The notes beneath the pieces were generated by a model, which worked only from the letters and a program-made list of their open reading frames with translations, searched no databases and was not told the origin of the DNA. A DNA stretch of 64,000 nucleotides from Martinezella lusitana (lineage in GTDB: Bacteria; Pseudomonadota; Alphaproteobacteria; Rhizobiales; Rhizobiaceae). A program made the position numbers and the translations under genes. Position 1 is the stretch's first letter. Each line of letters starts with the position of its first letter. The DNA is taken from contig NZ_FMAF01000007.1 of assembly GCF_900094565.1 (NCBI RefSeq), positions 124,001 through 188,000 on the forward strand. The letters are read 5' to 3'. This document shows, piece by piece, positions 55,334 through 64,000 of the stretch.

Positions 55334-56230
55334 CTAGCCCTCCATGCCCGGCAGGATGGCGCCGCTCTTGCGAGCGAGGATCTTTGCGACGGCAGCGTCA
55401 TCCTCGAGGCCGAGACCTGCTTCGGAAGCCTCGACGAAGAGGCTGAGTGCGGTTGCTGTAAGCGGCGTGAGGGCTCCCGCCCTTTCGGCTTCGGAGGCGA
55501 CGATGCCAAGGTCCTTGACGAAGATGTTGACCGCCGAGCGTGGGGTGTAATCACCCGAAACGATGTGTTCGCCCCGGTTCTCGAACATCCATGACGAGCC
55601 CGCCGAAACGCGGATCACCTCATAAAGCGTCTTCAGGTCGATGCCCGCCTTGGCAGCTAGCGTCATGGCTTCGGCAGTTGCCGCAATGTGCACGCCTGCG
55701 AGAAGTTGATTGATCATTTTCACCTGGGAGCCGGCGCCGAGCCGATCCCCCAGGCGGAACACCTTTGCCGAAATGGCGTCGAGGACGGCGGATGCCCGGT
55801 CGAAGGCCTCTTGCGGGCCGGATGCCATGACGGTGATCTCGCCCGCCAGCGCGCGAACATGGCCTCCGGAAACCGGTGCGTCGATGACCTGCATGCCGGC
55901 TGCTTCCAATCTTTCGGCAATGGCCGTCGTGGCGCTCGGTGCCATGGTCGTGCAAAGCAGAAAGACAGTCGAGGGGCGCGCGGTCTCCAGCGCACCGTTC
56001 TGCCCGAAGAGAACGTCTTCGACCTGCTTGCTGTTGATGACGTAGATGAGGACGACATCGGCCGTGTCCACCGCCGAGGCCGGCGTGGTGCAGGCGTCCC
56101 CGCCCGCTTCCGTGAAGCGCGTCAGGACATCGCTGCGAACATCGCATCCTTGGACAGCAAAACCTGCTTTGAGAAGCGATATCGCTGCGCCCCAACCCAT
56201 CGATCCCAGCCCGATGACGGCTGTCTTCAT
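55334..56230 (-). CDS. ltnD: L-threonate dehydrogenase (3-hydroxyisobutyrate dehydrogenase family)
   Basis: 298 residues from ATG 56230 (GCAGGACG upstream). NAD motif GLGSMG at 7-12, substrate loop DAPVSGG around 118-123, catalytic Lys171 in KMINQLLAG. This is the beta-hydroxyacid dehydrogenase fold of LtnD, which gives 2-oxo-tetronate from L-threonate; the product then goes through OtnI. First gene of the operon, three bases before otnK. Other family members act on tartronate or hydroxyisobutyrate, but the neighbours support LtnD. Confidence 0.85.
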   Translation of the reverse strand: MKTAVIGLGSMGWGAAISLLKAGFAVQGCDVRSDVLTRFTEAGGDACTTPASAVDTADVVLIYVINSKQVEDVLFGQNGALETARPSTVFLLCTTMAPSATTAIAERLEAAGMQVIDAPVSGGHVRALAGEITVMASGPQEAFDRASAVLDAISAKVFRLGDRLGAGSQVKMINQLLAGVHIAATAEAMTLAAKAGIDLKTLYEVIRVSAGSSWMFENRGEHIVSGDYTPRSAVNIFVKDLGIVASEAERAGALTPLTATALSLFVEASEAGLGLEDDAAVAKILARKSGAILPGMEG

Positions 56231-56272
56231 TGCGTCCTGCACGGCGCTACCTCTGCAAATATCAATGATGTT

Positions 56273-56298
56273 ACCGGTACCGGTATCGATACCATGGT
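56273..56298. promoter_or_regulatory. Overlapping palindromes, probable LacI-type operator
   Basis: ACCGGTACCGGT (56273-56284) and GGTATCGATACC (56282-56293) are each perfect palindromes, followed by ACCATGGT (56291-56298). They lie between ltnD (minus) and the LacI gene (plus), about 40 bp before ltnD. Confidence 0.7.
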
Positions 56299-56409
56299 CA
56301 ATTTCCCTTCTGATTGTCAAGGGACGGCAGTTTGCATTTTGGTGGAAACATCCTATGAAGAAGAGCGGCGCCAGCCAAGGTGCGGCTTGTCATCGAGGGC
56401 TGCTTGGGA

Positions 56410-57453
56410 ATGCGCAAACCCACTCTGGAAGAAGTCGCGATCGAGGCAGGCGTCAGCAAAATGACGGCGTCGCGCGCCCTTCGCGGTTCCGCCGATGTCT
56501 CCAAGGAAACCCGTGAGAGGGTCATCGAGGCGGCGACGCGGATGAGCTATGTGGGCAACCGGCTGGCGCTCTCGCTTTCCTCTCAGCGTACCAATCTGGT
56601 CGCCGTCGTCGTGCCCAGCATGTCGAACATCGTTTTTCCCGAAGTTCTGGCCGGCATTTCCGCCGGGCTGGATGGCTCCGGCATGCAGGCCGTGTTCGGC
56701 ATATCCGACTATGACGTCGCCAAGGAGCGCGACATCATCCGCGACATGCTCTCCTGGCAGCCTTGCGCCATCATCGTTACCGGTCTGGATCAGCCGGAGG
56801 AGACGGTGAAATTGCTACAGCACGCGAATATTCCGGTCATCCAGCTCATGGATCTAGATGGCACGCCCATCGATCTCAATGTCGGGCTATCGCATGGCGG
56901 GGCGGGTGAGGACATGGCAAGGGCGCTCGTTGGGGCCGGCCGCAGACGGTTCGGCTATGTCGGCAGCGCACTCGAGAAGGATCTGCGCGCGGGCAAGCGC
57001 AAGGCCGGCTTCGAGCGGGTGTTGCACTCCTACGGCCTGCACTTCGTAAACCAGTCGGTCGATGACGCCTTTTCCTCGATCGCCTTGGGGAAGCGGCTGA
57101 CGCTCGCCATGCTCGCGGCCGTTCCCGATCTCGATTGCATTTATTATTCCAACGACGATATGGCGAGCGGCGGATTGTTCGCCTGCATGGAGCTGGGGGT
57201 TGCTGTACCCGAAAAGATCCTGATTGCAGGCTTCAACGGGCTGGATCTCGTCAACTCCCTGCCGGCGCCGATCGCGACCTCTCGTTCGCCAAGGCGCGCC
57301 ATGGGTGAGGTTGCGGCGCAGTTGGTCCGTCAGGCGGTGGCGGGCGCTCAGGATGCCCGCCAGAAAACGGTTGTGTTCAAGCCGGTAATTACAGGAATTG
57401 ACGGCTACGATGATGCGCCGGACGAGCCGGAGACGGCGCGCTTGCGTCCATGA
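56410..57453 (+). CDS. LacI-family regulator of the tetronate operon
   Basis: 347 residues from ATG 56410; the frame is open to 56380. HTH TLEEVAIEAGVSKMTASRAL followed by the hinge near NRLALSLSSQRT, then the effector domain (DCIYYSNDDMASGGLFACM, ILIAGFNGLDLVNSLPAPIAT). Resembles GntR-type (gluconate) LacI regulators. Divergent from ltnD, so most likely represses the tetronate operon through the palindromes at 56273-56298. Confidence 0.88.
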   Translation: MRKPTLEEVAIEAGVSKMTASRALRGSADVSKETRERVIEAATRMSYVGNRLALSLSSQRTNLVAVVVPSMSNIVFPEVLAGISAGLDGSGMQAVFGISDYDVAKERDIIRDMLSWQPCAIIVTGLDQPEETVKLLQHANIPVIQLMDLDGTPIDLNVGLSHGGAGEDMARALVGAGRRRFGYVGSALEKDLRAGKRKAGFERVLHSYGLHFVNQSVDDAFSSIALGKRLTLAMLAAVPDLDCIYYSNDDMASGGLFACMELGVAVPEKILIAGFNGLDLVNSLPAPIATSRSPRRAMGEVAAQLVRQAVAGAQDARQKTVVFKPVITGIDGYDDAPDEPETARLRP

Positions 57454-57979: not shown

Positions 57980-58621
57980 TTACGCCTGCAGTATATGCCT
58001 GCGCGTCAGCTCCTTGAGCATGTCCACGTCGCGTTTCTCTATCGCGTCGACCATCAGCTGATGTTCGTGGCCCGACTGCTCGATGCGGGCGCGGGTGCGC
58101 CATTGCGATACGGGCGCCGATGACGTCCGCTGCCGGATCTCCGTGATCAGCTCGACGAGTTCCTGATTGCCGGCGAGCGCCAGCAAATGCCGGTGAAAGG
58201 CAAGATTGGCTTCGTAGAGCTCAAGCATGGTGCCCGTCAGTACCAGCTCGTCGAAGCGCGAGGCGAGCGCCCGCAAATTCGCGACATCGTCCTCGCCGGC
58301 GTTTGCGACGATGCGGTCGCTGACCGCCGTTTCAAGGATGACGCGGATGTCGCTGACTTCCTGAGCGCGGCGCCCGTCCTGCTCGTGCACATGATAGCCG
58401 CGATTGGGAACATGCTCCACCAGCCGCTTCTGCACCAGCCTGTCGAGCGCGCGGCGCACTTCCGGCCGCGTACAGTTGTATCGTCGTTCGAGATCGATCT
58501 GCTTCAGCCACGTTCCGGGCGGAAGCCTGCCGGCGAGGATATCCTGGAGAATGAGCTCGGTCACATCCGGCGTCTCCGCCTCTTTTGCTCGCGCTGTCGC
58601 TTCAGCTTCCAGCGAATTCAT
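57980..58621 (-). CDS. GntR-family (FCD type) transcriptional regulator
   Basis: 213 residues. The winged helix (LILQDILAGRLPPGTWLKQI, RYNCTRPEVRRALDRL) is joined to an all-helical FCD domain with a likely metal site (ANLAFHRHLL, GHEHQLM). FCD members bind small organic acids or amino-acid derivatives. Divergent from the M20/M28/ABC operon with a palindrome between them. Confidence 0.88.
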   Translation of the reverse strand: MNSLEAEATARAKEAETPDVTELILQDILAGRLPPGTWLKQIDLERRYNCTRPEVRRALDRLVQKRLVEHVPNRGYHVHEQDGRRAQEVSDIRVILETAVSDRIVANAGEDDVANLRALASRFDELVLTGTMLELYEANLAFHRHLLALAGNQELVELITEIRQRTSSAPVSQWRTRARIEQSGHEHQLMVDAIEKRDVDMLKELTRRHILQA

Positions 58622-58742: not shown

Positions 58743-58769
58743 AATTGGCACATAAATTGGTGCCAATTT
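58743..58769. promoter_or_regulatory. GntR-type operator palindrome
   Basis: AATTGGCAC (58743-58751) is the inverse of GTGCCAATT (58760-58768), and the inner AAATTGG-TG-CCAATTT (58754-58769) is a second palindrome. TTGG-N-CCAA arms are typical of FadR-family GntR sites. It lies 32 bp before the M20 gene. Confidence 0.75.
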
Positions 58770-58800: not shown

Positions 58801-60225
58801 ATGCAAAATTCTGATGCGGTCTGGGAAATCGTCGAGAGAAAACGCGCGGCGTTCTTTGCGCTCAGCGATCGGATTTGGGATATCCCAGAGACGAACTATC
58901 TCGAATATCAATCCGCCGAAGAACATGCTCGCATGCTTGAGAGCGAGGGCTTCCGGGTCGAGCGCGGACTTGCCGGCTTGCCGACAGCAGTCATGGGAGA
59001 GGCAGGCGAGGGTGGACCGGTCATCGCGATATTGGGTGAATTCGACGCGCTGCCGGGATTGAGCCAGGAGGCCGGGATCGCCGAAGAGCGCCCCTTGATC
59101 AGCGGCGGCAACGGCCATGGTTGCGGTCATAACATGCTCGGCTCCGGATCGATGCTGGCGGCTGCCGCCGTCAAGGATTTTCTTGCCGAAAACGGTCTGA
59201 AGGGCCGGGTGCGCTATTACGGTTGCCCCGCCGAAGAGGGCGGTTCTTCCAAGGGCTTCATGGTGCGGGCCGGCGTCTTCGATGACGTAGATATCGCGAT
59301 TTCCTGGCATCCGGCAGCCTTTGCCGGCGTCAACAATCCGATCTCGCTCGCCTGCAATGAAATCAATTTCCACTTCTCCGGCCGCGCCTCGCATGCCTCG
59401 GCCACGCCCCATCTCGGTCGCAGCGCGCTCGATGCCGTCGAATTGATGAATGTCGGCGTCAACTACATGCGTGAGCACATGCCCTCGACGGCGCGTATTC
59501 ATTACGCCATCACCGATGCGGGCGGTGCGGCGCCGAATGTCGTGCAGGCGCGGGCGACGGTCCGCTATCTGGTTCGCGCGCGGACCTTGCCGGAGCTTCT
59601 GGTGCTGGTTGCGCGGGTCAAGAAAGTAGCGGAGGGCGCCGCGCTGATGACCGAGACGACCGTTCGCAGCGAGATCATCAGCGGCGATGCCAATCTGGTC
59701 GGGAACACGCCGCTCGAGGAGTGCATGTTCTCTCACCTCGAACGTCTTGGGCCGCCGGTGTTCGATGACGAGGACCGCGAGACGGCGCGCAAATTCCAGC
59801 AGACCTTCAGTGCTGAGGATATCGCGGCCTCCTATGGTCGTTTCGCGCTGAAGCCGAAGAAGGGCCAAGCGCTTTGCGAGGAGATTTTTCCGCTGAATGC
59901 CGGTGATGGCACGCTGGTCGGCTCCACGGATGTCGGAACCGTCAGCTGGGTCGTCCCGACCGTCCAGATGCGCGGCGCCACTTATGCGATCGGCACGCCG
60001 GGGCATTCCTGGCAGCTTGTCGCCCAGGGTAAGTTGCCTGTGGCGCACAAGGGAACCGAGCATGCAGCCAAGGTGATGGCGAGCACGGCTACCGATCTCA
60101 TCCGCAATCCGCAGCTCATCGAGGCCGCCAAGGCTGACCACAAGGCGCGGCTTGAGGGCACGCCTTTCGTCAATCCGATCCCGGACGACGTCAAGCCGCC
60201 GCTCCCGGAGACGGCCAATGGCTGA
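58801..60225 (+). CDS. M20-family amidohydrolase, AbgB-like
   Basis: 474 residues from ATG 58801. It closely follows E. coli AbgB (aminobenzoyl-glutamate hydrolase subunit) as remembered: ILGEFDALPGLSQEAG, GHGCGHNMLG (metal His), CPAEEGGSSKGFMVR (Glu), SWHPAAFAGV (His), SHASATPHLGRSALDAVELM and VGSTDVGTVSWVVP. It likely hydrolyses an amide between an aromatic or acyl group and an amino acid. It overlaps the M28 gene by 8 bases, suggesting two consecutive cleavages of one imported compound. Confidence 0.88.
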   Translation: MQNSDAVWEIVERKRAAFFALSDRIWDIPETNYLEYQSAEEHARMLESEGFRVERGLAGLPTAVMGEAGEGGPVIAILGEFDALPGLSQEAGIAEERPLISGGNGHGCGHNMLGSGSMLAAAAVKDFLAENGLKGRVRYYGCPAEEGGSSKGFMVRAGVFDDVDIAISWHPAAFAGVNNPISLACNEINFHFSGRASHASATPHLGRSALDAVELMNVGVNYMREHMPSTARIHYAITDAGGAAPNVVQARATVRYLVRARTLPELLVLVARVKKVAEGAALMTETTVRSEIISGDANLVGNTPLEECMFSHLERLGPPVFDDEDRETARKFQQTFSAEDIAASYGRFALKPKKGQALCEEIFPLNAGDGTLVGSTDVGTVSWVVPTVQMRGATYAIGTPGHSWQLVAQGKLPVAHKGTEHAAKVMASTATDLIRNPQLIEAAKADHKARLEGTPFVNPIPDDVKPPLPETANG

Positions 60226-61894
60226 GCTGGCCCTGAAGCCCGATCGCGAGCGCCTGATGGCGCATATCACAGAGTTTGCCCGCCGGGTGAAGCTCTCGGG
60301 GACGCCTGAGGAACTCGAAAGCTTTCGCTATCTTCAGGCGCAGATGGATAGCTATGGCTATCGCACGCAGCTCTTGTCGCACGACGCCTACATCAGTCTG
60401 CCTGGCGCGGCGAAAGTGGAGATCGACGGCAAGAGCTTCCGCTGCATCACGCATTCCATGTCGGTGCCGACATCCGCGGCCGGAGTAACCGGCGTTCTCG
60501 TCTATGTCGGCGAGGGTAGCAAGGCGGATTTCGCGGGCAAGGACGTCGCCGGGAAAATTCTTTTGGTAGATGGGATCGCGACCGAGGAAGTGGCAGCACT
60601 TGCAAGTGCTGCCGGTGCTCTCGGCCAGCTTCATGTCAGTCCGAACGAGCATCTCTACGAAATGTGCGTGTCGCCGGTCTGGGGCAGCCCGTCGCAGCAT
60701 ACACTGATCAATCTGCCGACCACGGTCATCTGCACCATAGCCAAGGAAGACGGCGATCGCTTGCGCATGAGGCTTGCGAACGGCGAAAAAGTGCAGGCGA
60801 CGCTGACGGCGGAGGTGGATACCGGGTGGCGCAAGACGCCGCTGCTGGTGGCCGAACTTCAGCCGACCGGCGAGGATGCGCCATTCGTCCTCTTTTCTGG
60901 GCATCACGACACCTGGCATTTCGGCGTCATGGACAATGGCGGCGCCAATGCGACGATGTTGGAAGCTGCCCGCCTGCTTGCCCTTCACGCGGCTGATTGG
61001 CGGCGAGGGCTGCGCATATGCTTCTGGTCCGGCCATTCGCATGGCCGTTATTCGGGCTCGGCCTGGTATGTGGACGAATATTTCGACGATCTCGATCGTC
61101 GTTGCGCGGTGCATGTAAATGTCGACTCCACCGGCGGCGAGGGGGCAACAGTGCTCACCAATTCCGGCGTGATCGACGAGTTGCGGCCCCTCGCTTCGGA
61201 CGTGATCGAACGTGTCGCGGGGCAGAAGCATGCCGGCAGGAGGCATGGACGGGCTGCGGACCAATCCTTCTGGGGTGTCGGCATCCCCTCGATGTTCGGC
61301 AGCCTCAGCCATCAGCCGCCCGGTCCGGTCAAGATGCTGACGGCGCTCGGATGGTGGTGGCATACGCCGCATGACACGGCCGCACATATCGACCCCGATA
61401 ATCTGATCCGCGACACACAAATCGCCCTCGAGGTCCTGTGGCGGCTCTTGGCGTCGCCCGTCCTGCCGCTGGACTACACCGTCTATGCCGCAGCGCTCGG
61501 TGAACAGATCGCGCGCCTGCAGACAGGGCTTGGGGGCCGGATCGACATTTCCGTTTTGGTAAAGGCGGTTGATGAGCTGAACGCCAATGCGAAGGCCATT
61601 CTTGAGGCGGGCCATGTCTCCGTCGACAGGGCGGAGCACATCAATGCTTCGATGATGCGCGCCGCGCGCCATCTGGTGCCGCTGAATTATACGAGCGGCG
61701 AGCGCTTTCACCACGATTCCGCCCTGCCGCACCCTGCCTGGCCTTCACTGGAGGGGCTGCGTGCGCTGGCCTCGTTGCCGAAGGGGGCGCCGGAGACGGC
61801 CTTCTATGCCGTTCATGCGCGCCAGGTCAGAAATCGTGTTGCTCACGCGCTGAGAGAGGCCAATGCGGCGCTCGGATCGGCTCTGAACGACTGA
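60218..61894 (+). CDS. M28-like zinc peptidase with altered active-site motif
   Basis: 558 residues from ATG 60218, inside the M20 gene end. A PA-like region (about 70-190) precedes the M28 domain. The first ligands HHD and DNGGANATMLE are present, and HTPHDTAAH gives the last His/Asp. The segment that in M28 peptidases carries the catalytic Glu pair (AEE) reads WSGHSHGRYSGSAWY, so the general base seems changed to His/Asn-like residues. I recall related proteins with GHS(H/N)GRYSGS. Probably a distinct subfamily. No signal peptide. Together with M20 it probably degrades a peptide-like or amide substrate. Confidence 0.75.
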   Translation: MAELALKPDRERLMAHITEFARRVKLSGTPEELESFRYLQAQMDSYGYRTQLLSHDAYISLPGAAKVEIDGKSFRCITHSMSVPTSAAGVTGVLVYVGEGSKADFAGKDVAGKILLVDGIATEEVAALASAAGALGQLHVSPNEHLYEMCVSPVWGSPSQHTLINLPTTVICTIAKEDGDRLRMRLANGEKVQATLTAEVDTGWRKTPLLVAELQPTGEDAPFVLFSGHHDTWHFGVMDNGGANATMLEAARLLALHAADWRRGLRICFWSGHSHGRYSGSAWYVDEYFDDLDRRCAVHVNVDSTGGEGATVLTNSGVIDELRPLASDVIERVAGQKHAGRRHGRAADQSFWGVGIPSMFGSLSHQPPGPVKMLTALGWWWHTPHDTAAHIDPDNLIRDTQIALEVLWRLLASPVLPLDYTVYAAALGEQIARLQTGLGGRIDISVLVKAVDELNANAKAILEAGHVSVDRAEHINASMMRAARHLVPLNYTSGERFHHDSALPHPAWPSLEGLRALASLPKGAPETAFYAVHARQVRNRVAHALREANAALGSALND

Positions 61895-61959
61895 TCGCGA
61901 CAGGCCGCCGAATCTAACAAACGGCTGCGCAAAGTGGCTGTAAAAAAAGGGAACTGAAA

Positions 61960-62814
61960 ATGAAGAACAAAAGCCTGCTTGCCGCCGTGTTCGGGGCTAT
62001 TGCCGTTCTGGCACCGCTTGCCGCCGGCGCCAAGGATTGGACGCATGTCAAAGTCGGCATCGAGGGCGCTTTTCCGCCCTGGAACCTGATGGACTCCAGC
62101 GGCAAGCTCGCCGGTTTCGATGTCGATCTGATCAACAATCTCTGCAGCCGCGCCAAGGTCGACTGCGAGCTGATCGCCGGCGAATGGAATGCGATGATCC
62201 CGAGCCTCAATGCCGGCAAGTTCGATCTTGTCATGACGCTCGGCATCAACGAGAAGCGCAAGCAGGTCGTCGACTTCACCGTTCCCTATGCCAGCGGCGT
62301 CGCGAGCTTTTTCCTCTTGAAGGATGGCCCGGTTTCCCCGCTGCCGATGACGGGCGAACGGCTGAACCTGAACGACAAGGCCAAGGCCGATCCGGTAATG
62401 GCTGAAATCGGCAAGTCCTTGAAGGGCAAGACGATCGGCGTGGTCCAATCGACCAGCCAGGAACAGTTGATCACCGCCTATTTCGGTTCCGATGTCACCG
62501 TGCGTGCCTATAAGAGCTCCGGCGAGCGCGATCTCGACTTGAAGGCAGGACGTGTCGATGCCGGTTTCGACAGCGGCGTCTATGAGACCTCCGTTCTGGG
62601 CAAACCGGGCAACGAGGACCTGATGATGTCGGGGCCGATGGTCAAGGGCGCGATGCTTGCGACGGAAGTGGCGCTCGGCATGCGCAAGGGCGAAACGGAT
62701 CTGAAGGCCAAATTCGATGAGGCCATCAAGCAAGCCGCTAAGGATGGGACGATCAAGCAGCTCTCGGAAAAATGGAGCAAGATCGACCTTACGCCCACGT
62801 TTGACGCCAATTGA
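61960..62814 (+). CDS. Polar amino-acid ABC transporter binding protein
   Basis: 284 residues with a signal peptide (MKNKSLLAAVFGAIAVLAPL, cleavage near AAGAKD). It is family-3 (SBP_bac_3) with VGIEGAFPPWNLMDSSGKLAGFDVDLI, DFTVPYASGVASFFL and the terminal helix FDEAIKQAAKDGTIKQLSEKW. Such proteins bind polar amino acids or opine-like compounds. It lies 65 bp after the M28 gene in the same operon. Confidence 0.9.
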   Translation: MKNKSLLAAVFGAIAVLAPLAAGAKDWTHVKVGIEGAFPPWNLMDSSGKLAGFDVDLINNLCSRAKVDCELIAGEWNAMIPSLNAGKFDLVMTLGINEKRKQVVDFTVPYASGVASFFLLKDGPVSPLPMTGERLNLNDKAKADPVMAEIGKSLKGKTIGVVQSTSQEQLITAYFGSDVTVRAYKSSGERDLDLKAGRVDAGFDSGVYETSVLGKPGNEDLMMSGPMVKGAMLATEVALGMRKGETDLKAKFDEAIKQAAKDGTIKQLSEKWSKIDLTPTFDAN

Positions 62815-62895
62815 ATGCCCTCGCGAGACATCGTCCCTAGCTGAGGCTTAGACAATGATACGATTTGCCAGAATCTGCTCCACTCGGGCAGCACC

Positions 62896-63615
62896 ATGAA
62901 CCAGCCAGGCATATTCGAACTTGCCGGCTTCGGCCCGGACGGCTGGGGGCATGCCCTTCTCGCCGGGGCGTGGATGACCATCCTTGTCGCGATTGCCGGC
63001 TATGCGGTCGGCGCCCTCATCGGGACCTTCGGTGCCTGGGCGAAGATTGCCGGCAATCGCTTTGCGCGCACGGTGGCCGATGCCTACACGACCGTATTGC
63101 GCGGCATTCCCGATCTGCTGGTCATCTACCTCTTCTATTTCGGCGGAAGCGCCGTCGTCACGGCGATCGGCAAGCTTTTCGGGGCGGAAGGCTTTCTTGG
63201 TTTTCCCGGATTTCTTGCCGGCTCGCTTGCCGTGGGCGTCACCTCGGGAGCCCAGTTCACGGAGGTGCTGCGGGGCGGGTTCAAGGCGGTGCATCCCGGT
63301 GAAATCGAGGCGGCTATTGCCTGCGGCATGTCGCGCGGCTTGCGCCTGCGCCGCATCATTGCGCCGCTGACGCTGCGGCATGCGCTTCCCGGCCTCGGGA
63401 ATGTCTGGCAGGTCGTCCTGAAGGAATCGGCGCTGGTGTCGATCACCGGCGTCGCCGAACTCCTGCGTCAGGCCCAGGTCGGTGCCGGCTCGACCGGGCT
63501 TCCATTCGATTTCTACCTGATTGCCGGCGTCATCTACCTGATGATCTCGACCCTTTCGAGCCTCATCCTTCAACAGGCCGAGCGGCGTTTGTCGCGCGGT
63601 GTGAGGAGGCGCTGA
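62896..63615 (+). CDS. Amino-acid ABC transporter permease, HisQ type
   Basis: 239 residues, multiple transmembrane helices. The amino-acid-permease motif AYTTVLRGIPDLLVIYLFYFGG and the EAA loop AIACGMSRGLRLRRIIAPLTLRHALPGL are present. It ends with one base overlapping the next permease start. Confidence 0.9.
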   Translation: MNQPGIFELAGFGPDGWGHALLAGAWMTILVAIAGYAVGALIGTFGAWAKIAGNRFARTVADAYTTVLRGIPDLLVIYLFYFGGSAVVTAIGKLFGAEGFLGFPGFLAGSLAVGVTSGAQFTEVLRGGFKAVHPGEIEAAIACGMSRGLRLRRIIAPLTLRHALPGLGNVWQVVLKESALVSITGVAELLRQAQVGAGSTGLPFDFYLIAGVIYLMISTLSSLILQQAERRLSRGVRRR

Positions 63616-64000
63616 TGGATTGGCAATTCCTTGAAGAGACGTTCGTAAGTCTCATCGGCGCGCTCCCTTTGACGATCGAGCTTGCCGTGACATCGATCTG
63701 CCTCGGCGCCATCCTGGCGCTGCTGCTGGCGCTGGCGCGTCTTTCCGGCATCGCTGTCCTCGATTGGTTCGCGCGCCTCTATGTCTTCGTCTTCCGCGGT
63801 ACGCCGCTGCTGGTTCAGATCTTCCTGATCTACTATGGCCTCGGCCAGTTTCCCGCCATACGCCATAGTATCCTCTGGCCATTCCTGCGCGAGCCCTATT
63901 GGTGTGCGGTCCTGGCATTGACCTTGAACACCGCTGCCTATGCCAGTGAGATCATTCGCGGCGGCCTGCTCTCGGTACCGCACGGGCAGGTCGAGGCCGC
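63615..64000 (+). CDS. Amino-acid ABC transporter permease, HisM type, partial
   Basis: The start ATG 63615 overlaps the HisQ-type stop (TGATG), and the frame runs open off the window for 128 codons. MDWQFLEETFVSLIGALPLT, FVFRGTPLLVQIFLIYYGLG and TAAYASEIIRGGLLSVPHGQ are typical of the second permease of polar amino-acid importers. The ATPase gene is presumably just outside. Confidence 0.9.
   Translation, partial: MDWQFLEETFVSLIGALPLTIELAVTSICLGAILALLLALARLSGIAVLDWFARLYVFVFRGTPLLVQIFLIYYGLGQFPAIRHSILWPFLREPYWCAVLALTLNTAAYASEIIRGGLLSVPHGQVEA

Follow-up and report, generated by a model that had tools for sequence, protein, structure and literature searches.

We analysed a 64,000-nucleotide stretch of the Martinezella lusitana genome (contig NZ_FMAF01000007.1, positions 124,001 to 188,000; hereafter the window), near whose end lies a gene cassette in the order GntR regulator, M20 amidohydrolase, M28 protein, binding protein, two permeases, ATPase and second binding protein. 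The M28 protein carries His273 and Ser274 in the columns of the family's Glu-Glu pair, and both residues are identical in 81 of 81 aligned proteins (that of the window and 80 relatives). The motif at WSGHSHGRYSGS is thus conserved and not a chance feature. Our preferred reading, which is tentative and falls just short of being probable, is that the genes form a locally regulated cassette that takes up and, inside the cell, hydrolyses an N-substituted (amide-linked) amino acid, probably a conjugate of arginine or of a close basic relative.

The altered active site of the M28 protein

M28 enzymes are peptidases with a two-metal site and rely on a Glu as general base. From the roles known in glutamate carboxypeptidase II (GCPII), we take the first Glu of the pair to be the general base and the second to be a metal ligand, and presume that His229, Asp239, Asp303 and His382 are the other metal ligands. 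The protein matches the M28 profile PF04389 with 62.2 bits (cut-off 21.3) and the protease-associated domain with 24.6 bits (cut-off 23.9). Where the family has its catalytic Glu and metal-ligand Glu, H273-S274 was found instead, both in pairwise and in profile alignments to solved M28 structures, so the loss of the pair reported in a preliminary description of this DNA is borne out. That description had also considered that the pair might be retained in another loop. By alignment of the HS class with four ordinary M28s, no relocated Glu was found: among HS-class residues conserved at 97% or more, there was no Glu that the four ordinary proteins lack. E249, which is conserved in the HS class, is common to all four.

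The extent of conservation was assessed in a set of 116 proteins, from which eight rows had been removed: five of the 81 close ones, whose open reading frame (ORF) was of odd length, and, among 43 distant matches, one partial and two duplicate rows. The pair at the Glu-Glu columns was HS in 104 proteins, HE in eight and EE in four, the last being ordinary M28s. His229, Asp231, Asp239, Asp303 and His382, four of which are the remaining metal-ligand positions, were kept in 116/116, and His stood at the general-base position in all 112 proteins outside the ordinary M28s, indicating that the protein is under tight constraint. Position 277 was Arg (103) or Lys (1) in HS rows, Thr or Glu in HE rows and Leu in EE rows. 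D348 is invariant in the HS and HE classes; its column in the ordinary M28s may be off by one, and it was not used. Glu148 was invariant in the 44 rows of a smaller alignment, made from 44 of the 81 close proteins and omitting the Neorhizobium alkalisoli locus (L036), which has a stop codon in its stretch; among the 116 rows the same position was Trp in 20, Phe in five and a gap in four.

In trees built from 61 of the 116 rows (two of them identical), each class occupied one side of a branch, with bootstrap/SH-aLRT support of 99/97 for HS, 97/76 for HE and 98/94 for EE. The split persisted at lower support when the motif columns were removed (SH-aLRT 96, 81 and 89). Since each class forms one side of a branch, it is plausible from these sequences that HE is an intermediate between EE and HS, with the order of events hinging on a root supplied only by the four long-branched ordinary M28s. 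The HS class includes a Deinococcus and a haloarchaeon as well as proteobacteria, and the motif also occurs in one further Deinococcus and one further haloarchaeon. At E ≤ 1e-30, a match to the M28 protein was present in 13 of 297 genomes for the order and in 16 of 199 for the family. At E ≤ 1e-10, 7 of 398 genomes of the phylum gave a match, four of them weak ones near 1e-11 that are ordinary M28s; the window's own genome is included in all three counts. No published activity was found for any member of this subfamily in open-licence PubMed Central texts.

The subfamily multiplies locally: a 19.5-kb stretch of one genome (L129, genome G183) holds three HS-class M28 genes within about 13 kb, with a fourth on another contig. 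Separately, a Roseomonas plasmid (L135, 6220-9611) carries two overlapping neighbouring M28 genes of the HS sub-types GHST and GHSH, with a five-gene ABC transporter on the opposite strand.

The AlphaFold2 model of the M28 protein (mean pLDDT 91.9) has a single fold made up of a protease-associated domain, an M28 domain and a helical C-terminal domain, as in GCPII. Over residues 1 to 558 it aligned with GCPII and transferrin receptor structures at 519-537 of 558 residues, Z about 30-36 and rmsd about 3. One GCPII structure gave Z 32.5 and rmsd 3.2 over 531 residues, and transferrin receptor 1 gave Z 35.6 and rmsd 3.2 over 524; the bacterial aminopeptidase BSAP matched with Z 36.7 and rmsd 4.0 over 383 residues.

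In our reading, the M28 protein would be an active metallohydrolase with His273 as its base. A wider proposal, possible although further from probable than our reading of the cassette, is that M28 metalloenzymes of the HS class are a kind of their own. The Glu base would have been exchanged for His stepwise (EE to HE to HS, where HS always comes with Arg or Lys at position 277), and the second metal site would have been rebuilt. Such enzymes would hydrolyse N-substituted amino acids or other amides rather than peptides, and would serve many bacterial and haloarchaeal amide-catabolic sets, here one for an opine-like arginine amide.

The M20 enzyme, its M28 partner and the GntR regulator

The M20 protein is 46% identical to Escherichia coli AbgB over its whole length (218/469 columns, BLAST), and its similarity to AbgA is much weaker. 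It scored 244.5 bits against TIGR01891 (cut-off 153.75), and its AbgB-like character, proposed earlier, is upheld. Its best match among solved structures was HmrA (6e-42), followed by Xaa-Arg dipeptidases (about 1e-28). It is the sole match at E ≤ 1e-20 in its own genome. The M20 and M28 reading frames share 8 bp (ATGGCTGA); importer genes come next and the GntR gene is divergent. The single operon described previously is supported. No N-terminal signal sequence was seen in M20 or M28 on reading of the translations.

The association of the two hydrolases was surveyed in 80 related loci from named genomes, some of whose stretches were ended early by contig ends. These loci are not independent, because many belong to close Rhizobium relatives. 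An AbgB-type M20 gene adjoined the M28 gene in 51 of the 80, upstream on the same strand in 46 and downstream, in reversed order, in five. The pair is thus kept across distant relatives, and the connection between M20 and M28 that had been suggested from the window holds. Among the 46 upstream pairs, the aligned M28 start gave the exact 8-bp overlap in 34, and an ATG at the same place, eight bases ahead of the end of the M20 gene, was present in 39. Three upstream pairs (L034, L043 and L038, with frames that look broken or shortened) were without tight contact. The five reversed pairs are from Roseomonas-type bacteria, three lying within 60 bp of each other and two about 0.8 kb apart. In the other 29 loci no AbgB-type M20 was seen in the stretch covered, contig ends cutting some short; one of these (L063) has a different kind of M20 nearby. 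The M28 active-site residues are the same in these 29 loci, so the M28 protein does not depend on an AbgB-type M20 partner.

The full cassette was found in Rhizobium, Sinorhizobium/Ensifer, Neorhizobium, Phyllobacterium, Mesorhizobium and Shinella, while Microvirga, Agrobacterium vitis, Biostraticola and Sodalis have just M20 and M28, or these two plus some of the other genes. On a conjugative A. vitis plasmid (L090, 9782-13896), GntR, M20 and M28 genes stand without adjoining annotated transporter genes. In the symbiont Candidatus Sodalis endolongispinus (L038, 8579-11900) the M20 frame is 315 aa against 474 and the M28 frame is over-long; the cassette's transporter genes were not found at this locus, and the cassette may be decaying there. 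Ten annotated plasmid loci of other members of the M28 subfamily were also inspected: five have an M20 gene near, and five have none in the stretch shown.

The pattern AATTGGNNCCAATT occurs at a single place in the 7.92-Mb genome, 58755-58768, and a reversed control pattern gave no match. In 43 of the 51 paired loci the core ATTGGNNCCAAT stands no more than 150 bp ahead of the M20 gene; the 1.05 Mb of these loci contains 46 sites in total. The palindrome has arms of 6-9 bp and is mostly 22-35 bp ahead of the M20 start across loci; its centre varies (CG 20, TA 16, TG 5, TT 2) and its arms are constant. The 43 core-bearing loci are exactly those with a GntR relative (43/43), and the core was found in none of the eight loci without one, which are also the more distant ones, so that kinship and function are not separable there. 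This pattern points to GntR as a putative regulator with one operon as its target. We infer that GntR binds the palindrome and responds to a ligand connected with the pathway.

Ligand evidence and competing explanations

Among solved structures, the first binding protein (SBP1) was closest to OccJ (1.5e-57) and then NocT (2e-48), and the second (SBP2) to OccJ (3.3e-71) and then NocT. Ligand-site residues were judged against Table 3 of PMC5740067. In all 46 orthologues, SBP1 retains the equivalents of the guanidinium-holding Glu30, the stacking Trp71 and the carboxylate-holding Arg96. It has Gly at the place of LAO Ser72 (46/46) and Ser at the place of LAO Asp161 (45/46, one gap). SBP2 keeps the Glu, Gln159 and Arg, with Phe replacing Trp and Ser at the Asp161 place (42/42 each). 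Both proteins are therefore without the Asp that holds a free alpha-amine, and each keeps only part of the full published OccJ/NocT ligand signature. In PMC4192606 the failure of NocT to bind arginine is explained by Ser72 and Asp161 both being absent. On these residues, an N-substituted basic amino acid is the favoured ligand.

Genes of arginine catabolism adjoin the cassette in some relatives. An arginase gene (TIGR01229, 326.6 against 227.6 bits) and an ornithine cyclodeaminase gene (NF005762, 576.8 against 350 bits) were found in four of the 80 loci, on different sides. They lie downstream in Neorhizobium galegae (L031), Rhizobium sp. CF080 (L033) and R. terrae (L035), separated from the cassette by one small divergent gene, and upstream, adjoining the GntR gene, in N. 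alkalisoli. Because the three downstream cases are near relatives, the four count as two or three arrangements. Neither gene was found in the stretch covered of N. tomejilense (L037). One Phyllobacterium locus (L022) has ornithine cyclodeaminase upstream, and on a Rhizobium etli plasmid the gene of the second binding protein is followed, on the opposite strand, by one of the agmatinase family. The cyanophycin dipeptide (beta-Asp-Arg), an N-substituted arginine with an extra carboxylate, was considered as a candidate substrate. The hydrolases given for cyanophycin dipeptides in the main text of PMC10206079 are IadA, IaaA and an M14-type family, and the terms 'M20' and 'M28' are absent from it.

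Taken together, these observations suggest the following scheme. GntR would sit on the promoter at the AATTGGNNCCAATT palindrome until substrate or product appears; the two opine-type binding proteins would catch the intact conjugate and the ABC transporter would import it. In the cytoplasm, the AbgB-like M20 and the M28 proteins, made from overlapping genes, would cleave the amide bond or successive bonds. His273 of M28 would act as general base in place of Glu, and the second metal site would be rebuilt around Ser274 and Arg277. The freed amino acid would then enter ordinary catabolism, by way of arginase and ornithine cyclodeaminase at loci that have them alongside. Both the substrate and the order of the enzyme steps are inferred.

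Several observations weigh against this scheme. The remaining 76 of 80 loci showed no arginase next to the cassette, and the window's own genome has its arginase match on another contig. SBP1 has Val (44; Ile in one, gap in one) at the guanidinium-binding Gln of OccJ and NocT, where LAO has Leu, and SBP2 retains Ser at the LAO Ser72 place (42/42). The missing alpha-amine Asp is not diagnostic, since only four of eight other binding proteins (seven from the same genome, one from L022) have it, and PMC5740067 reports that OccJ N202D still binds octopine. In addition, the ten plasmid loci and some of the 80 repeatedly show hydantoinase/oxoprolinase pairs, Asp/Glu racemases and dipeptide-type ABC transporters; with such neighbours, the M28 subfamily as a whole is not arginine-specific. 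Finally, some 5 kb upstream of the cassette the Phyllobacterium locus L046 carries a gene of the AbgT family (PF03806, 526 bits), relatives of which occur in two further Phyllobacterium loci (L027 and L030).

The chief rival, which we consider unlikely, is that the M28 protein is a pseudoenzyme, a transferrin-receptor-like partner or regulator, and that M20 does all the hydrolysis. Both Glu of the catalytic pair are indeed lost, the GCPII mutants E424A and E424M are called inactive in PDB titles, the match of the model to transferrin receptor 1 covers most of its length, and overlapping genes favour matched amounts of the two proteins. However, the four remaining metal-ligand positions are invariant throughout the 116 proteins and H273 is present in every HS and HE member, and these residues are unchanged in the 29 loci where no AbgB-type M20 was seen. 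Slightly more doubtful is ordinary Xaa-Arg-type dipeptide salvage, with M20 as an Xaa-Arg dipeptidase and M28 as an aminopeptidase with an altered site. Its attraction lies in the Xaa-Arg dipeptidases that follow HmrA among the solved M20 relatives and in the two bacterial aminopeptidases among the best M28 structure matches; yet M20 is AbgB-like over its length, and M28 has lost the Glu pair that ordinary aminopeptidases possess. It would also be unusual for dipeptides to be taken up by a family-3 importer.

The preliminary description had proposed a set degrading an amide or peptide conjugate, with folate fragments as one example. The conjugate-degrading part finds agreement in the importer's binding proteins, which resemble those for N-substituted amino acids, whereas folate fragments are an unlikely substrate; plant conjugates, its other example, may be one. 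Folate-fragment catabolism, in which M20 would cleave p-aminobenzoyl-glutamate and the GCPII-like M28 would trim poly-glutamate, is in our estimate far less probable than either of the other rivals, even though it would account for the kinship of M20 with AbgB, the GCPII fold of M28 and the AbgT-family genes of the three Phyllobacterium loci. According to PMC5082436, the known E. coli enzyme is an AbgA-AbgB tetramer; the cassette contains no AbgA partner, and the best AbgA match elsewhere in the genome, on another contig, is 33% identical. A search of the genome for AbgT, run without a positive control, gave no match. Both binding proteins resemble binders of basic amino acids and opines and keep the Glu that contacts a guanidinium or an amine, and in four loci arginine genes adjoin the cassette. 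As a separate observation, the AbgT-family gene of L046 is accompanied by an M20 gene upstream of the cassette (L046, 1440-4242), again with relatives in L027 and L030; the L027 copy of this M20 matched a PepT-like model below the cut-off.

Locus layout and comparison with known systems

The coordinates of the cassette are listed in Table 1. Upstream of it (55334-57453), as read from translations only, a probable 3-hydroxyisobutyrate dehydrogenase-type gene on the minus strand lies back to back with a LacI-type regulator gene on the plus strand.

Table 1. Features of the cassette, in window positions
Feature	Position	Strand	Basis or remark
GntR/FCD transcriptional regulator	57980..58621	minus	Pfam FCD 80.4 bits, GntR 43.4 bits; divergent from operon
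Candidate GntR operator, palindrome AATTGGTGCCAATT	58755..58768		
M20 amidohydrolase, AbgB-like	58801..60225	plus	BLAST identity to AbgB and TIGR01891
M28 protein, HS class, GCPII-like three-domain fold	60218..61894	plus	PF04389, alignments, predicted model
WSGHSHGRYSGS, M28 residues 270-281	61025..61060	plus	H273/S274 replacing catalytic Glu and metal-ligand Glu
SBP1, periplasmic family-3 binding protein, octopine/nopaline type	61960..62814	plus	SBP_bac_3 121.8 bits
ABC permease A	62896..63615	plus	BPD_transp_1 65 bits, cut-off 26.4
ABC permease B	63615..64352	plus	BPD_transp_1 82 bits, cut-off 26.4; runs past window end at 64000
ATPase	64349-65116		Beyond window, taken from genome
SBP2, second family-3 binding protein	end at 66009		Beyond window, taken from genome

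A conserved M28 branch that has lost the Glu base, apparently stepwise, and kept the other metal ligands is well suited to tests of how the active site of a metallopeptidase becomes converted. With one regulator, one operator, two binding proteins and two hydrolases, the cassette also makes a compact system open to experiment, and an identified substrate would name a nutrient for which root-associated bacteria may compete. No system joining these parts was found described in open-licence PubMed Central texts.

The cassette resembles three known systems in different respects. With E. coli AbgA-AbgB/AbgT it shares an amide hydrolase, 46% identical to AbgB, that is tied to an importer; it differs in having no AbgA, an M28 partner, an opine-type ABC importer instead of AbgT and a GntR instead of a LysR regulator. 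The M28 model has the whole three-domain fold of GCPII (NAALADase-like) proteins and the transferrin receptor and keeps four metal-ligand positions. Unlike them, the protein has His for the catalytic Glu and Ser for the ligand Glu, is encoded in a bacterial operon and, on reading of its translation, is without a signal sequence or membrane anchor. The closest solved relatives of SBP1 and SBP2 belong to the Agrobacterium occ and noc uptake systems, and the arginase and ornithine cyclodeaminase neighbours in four loci correspond to the pathway for the nopaline product described in PMC4192606. In contrast to occ and noc, the octopine and nopaline signatures are incomplete in these binding proteins, and the cassette has M20 and M28 hydrolases. 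The parts belong to known families, and the catalytic change is new within M28.

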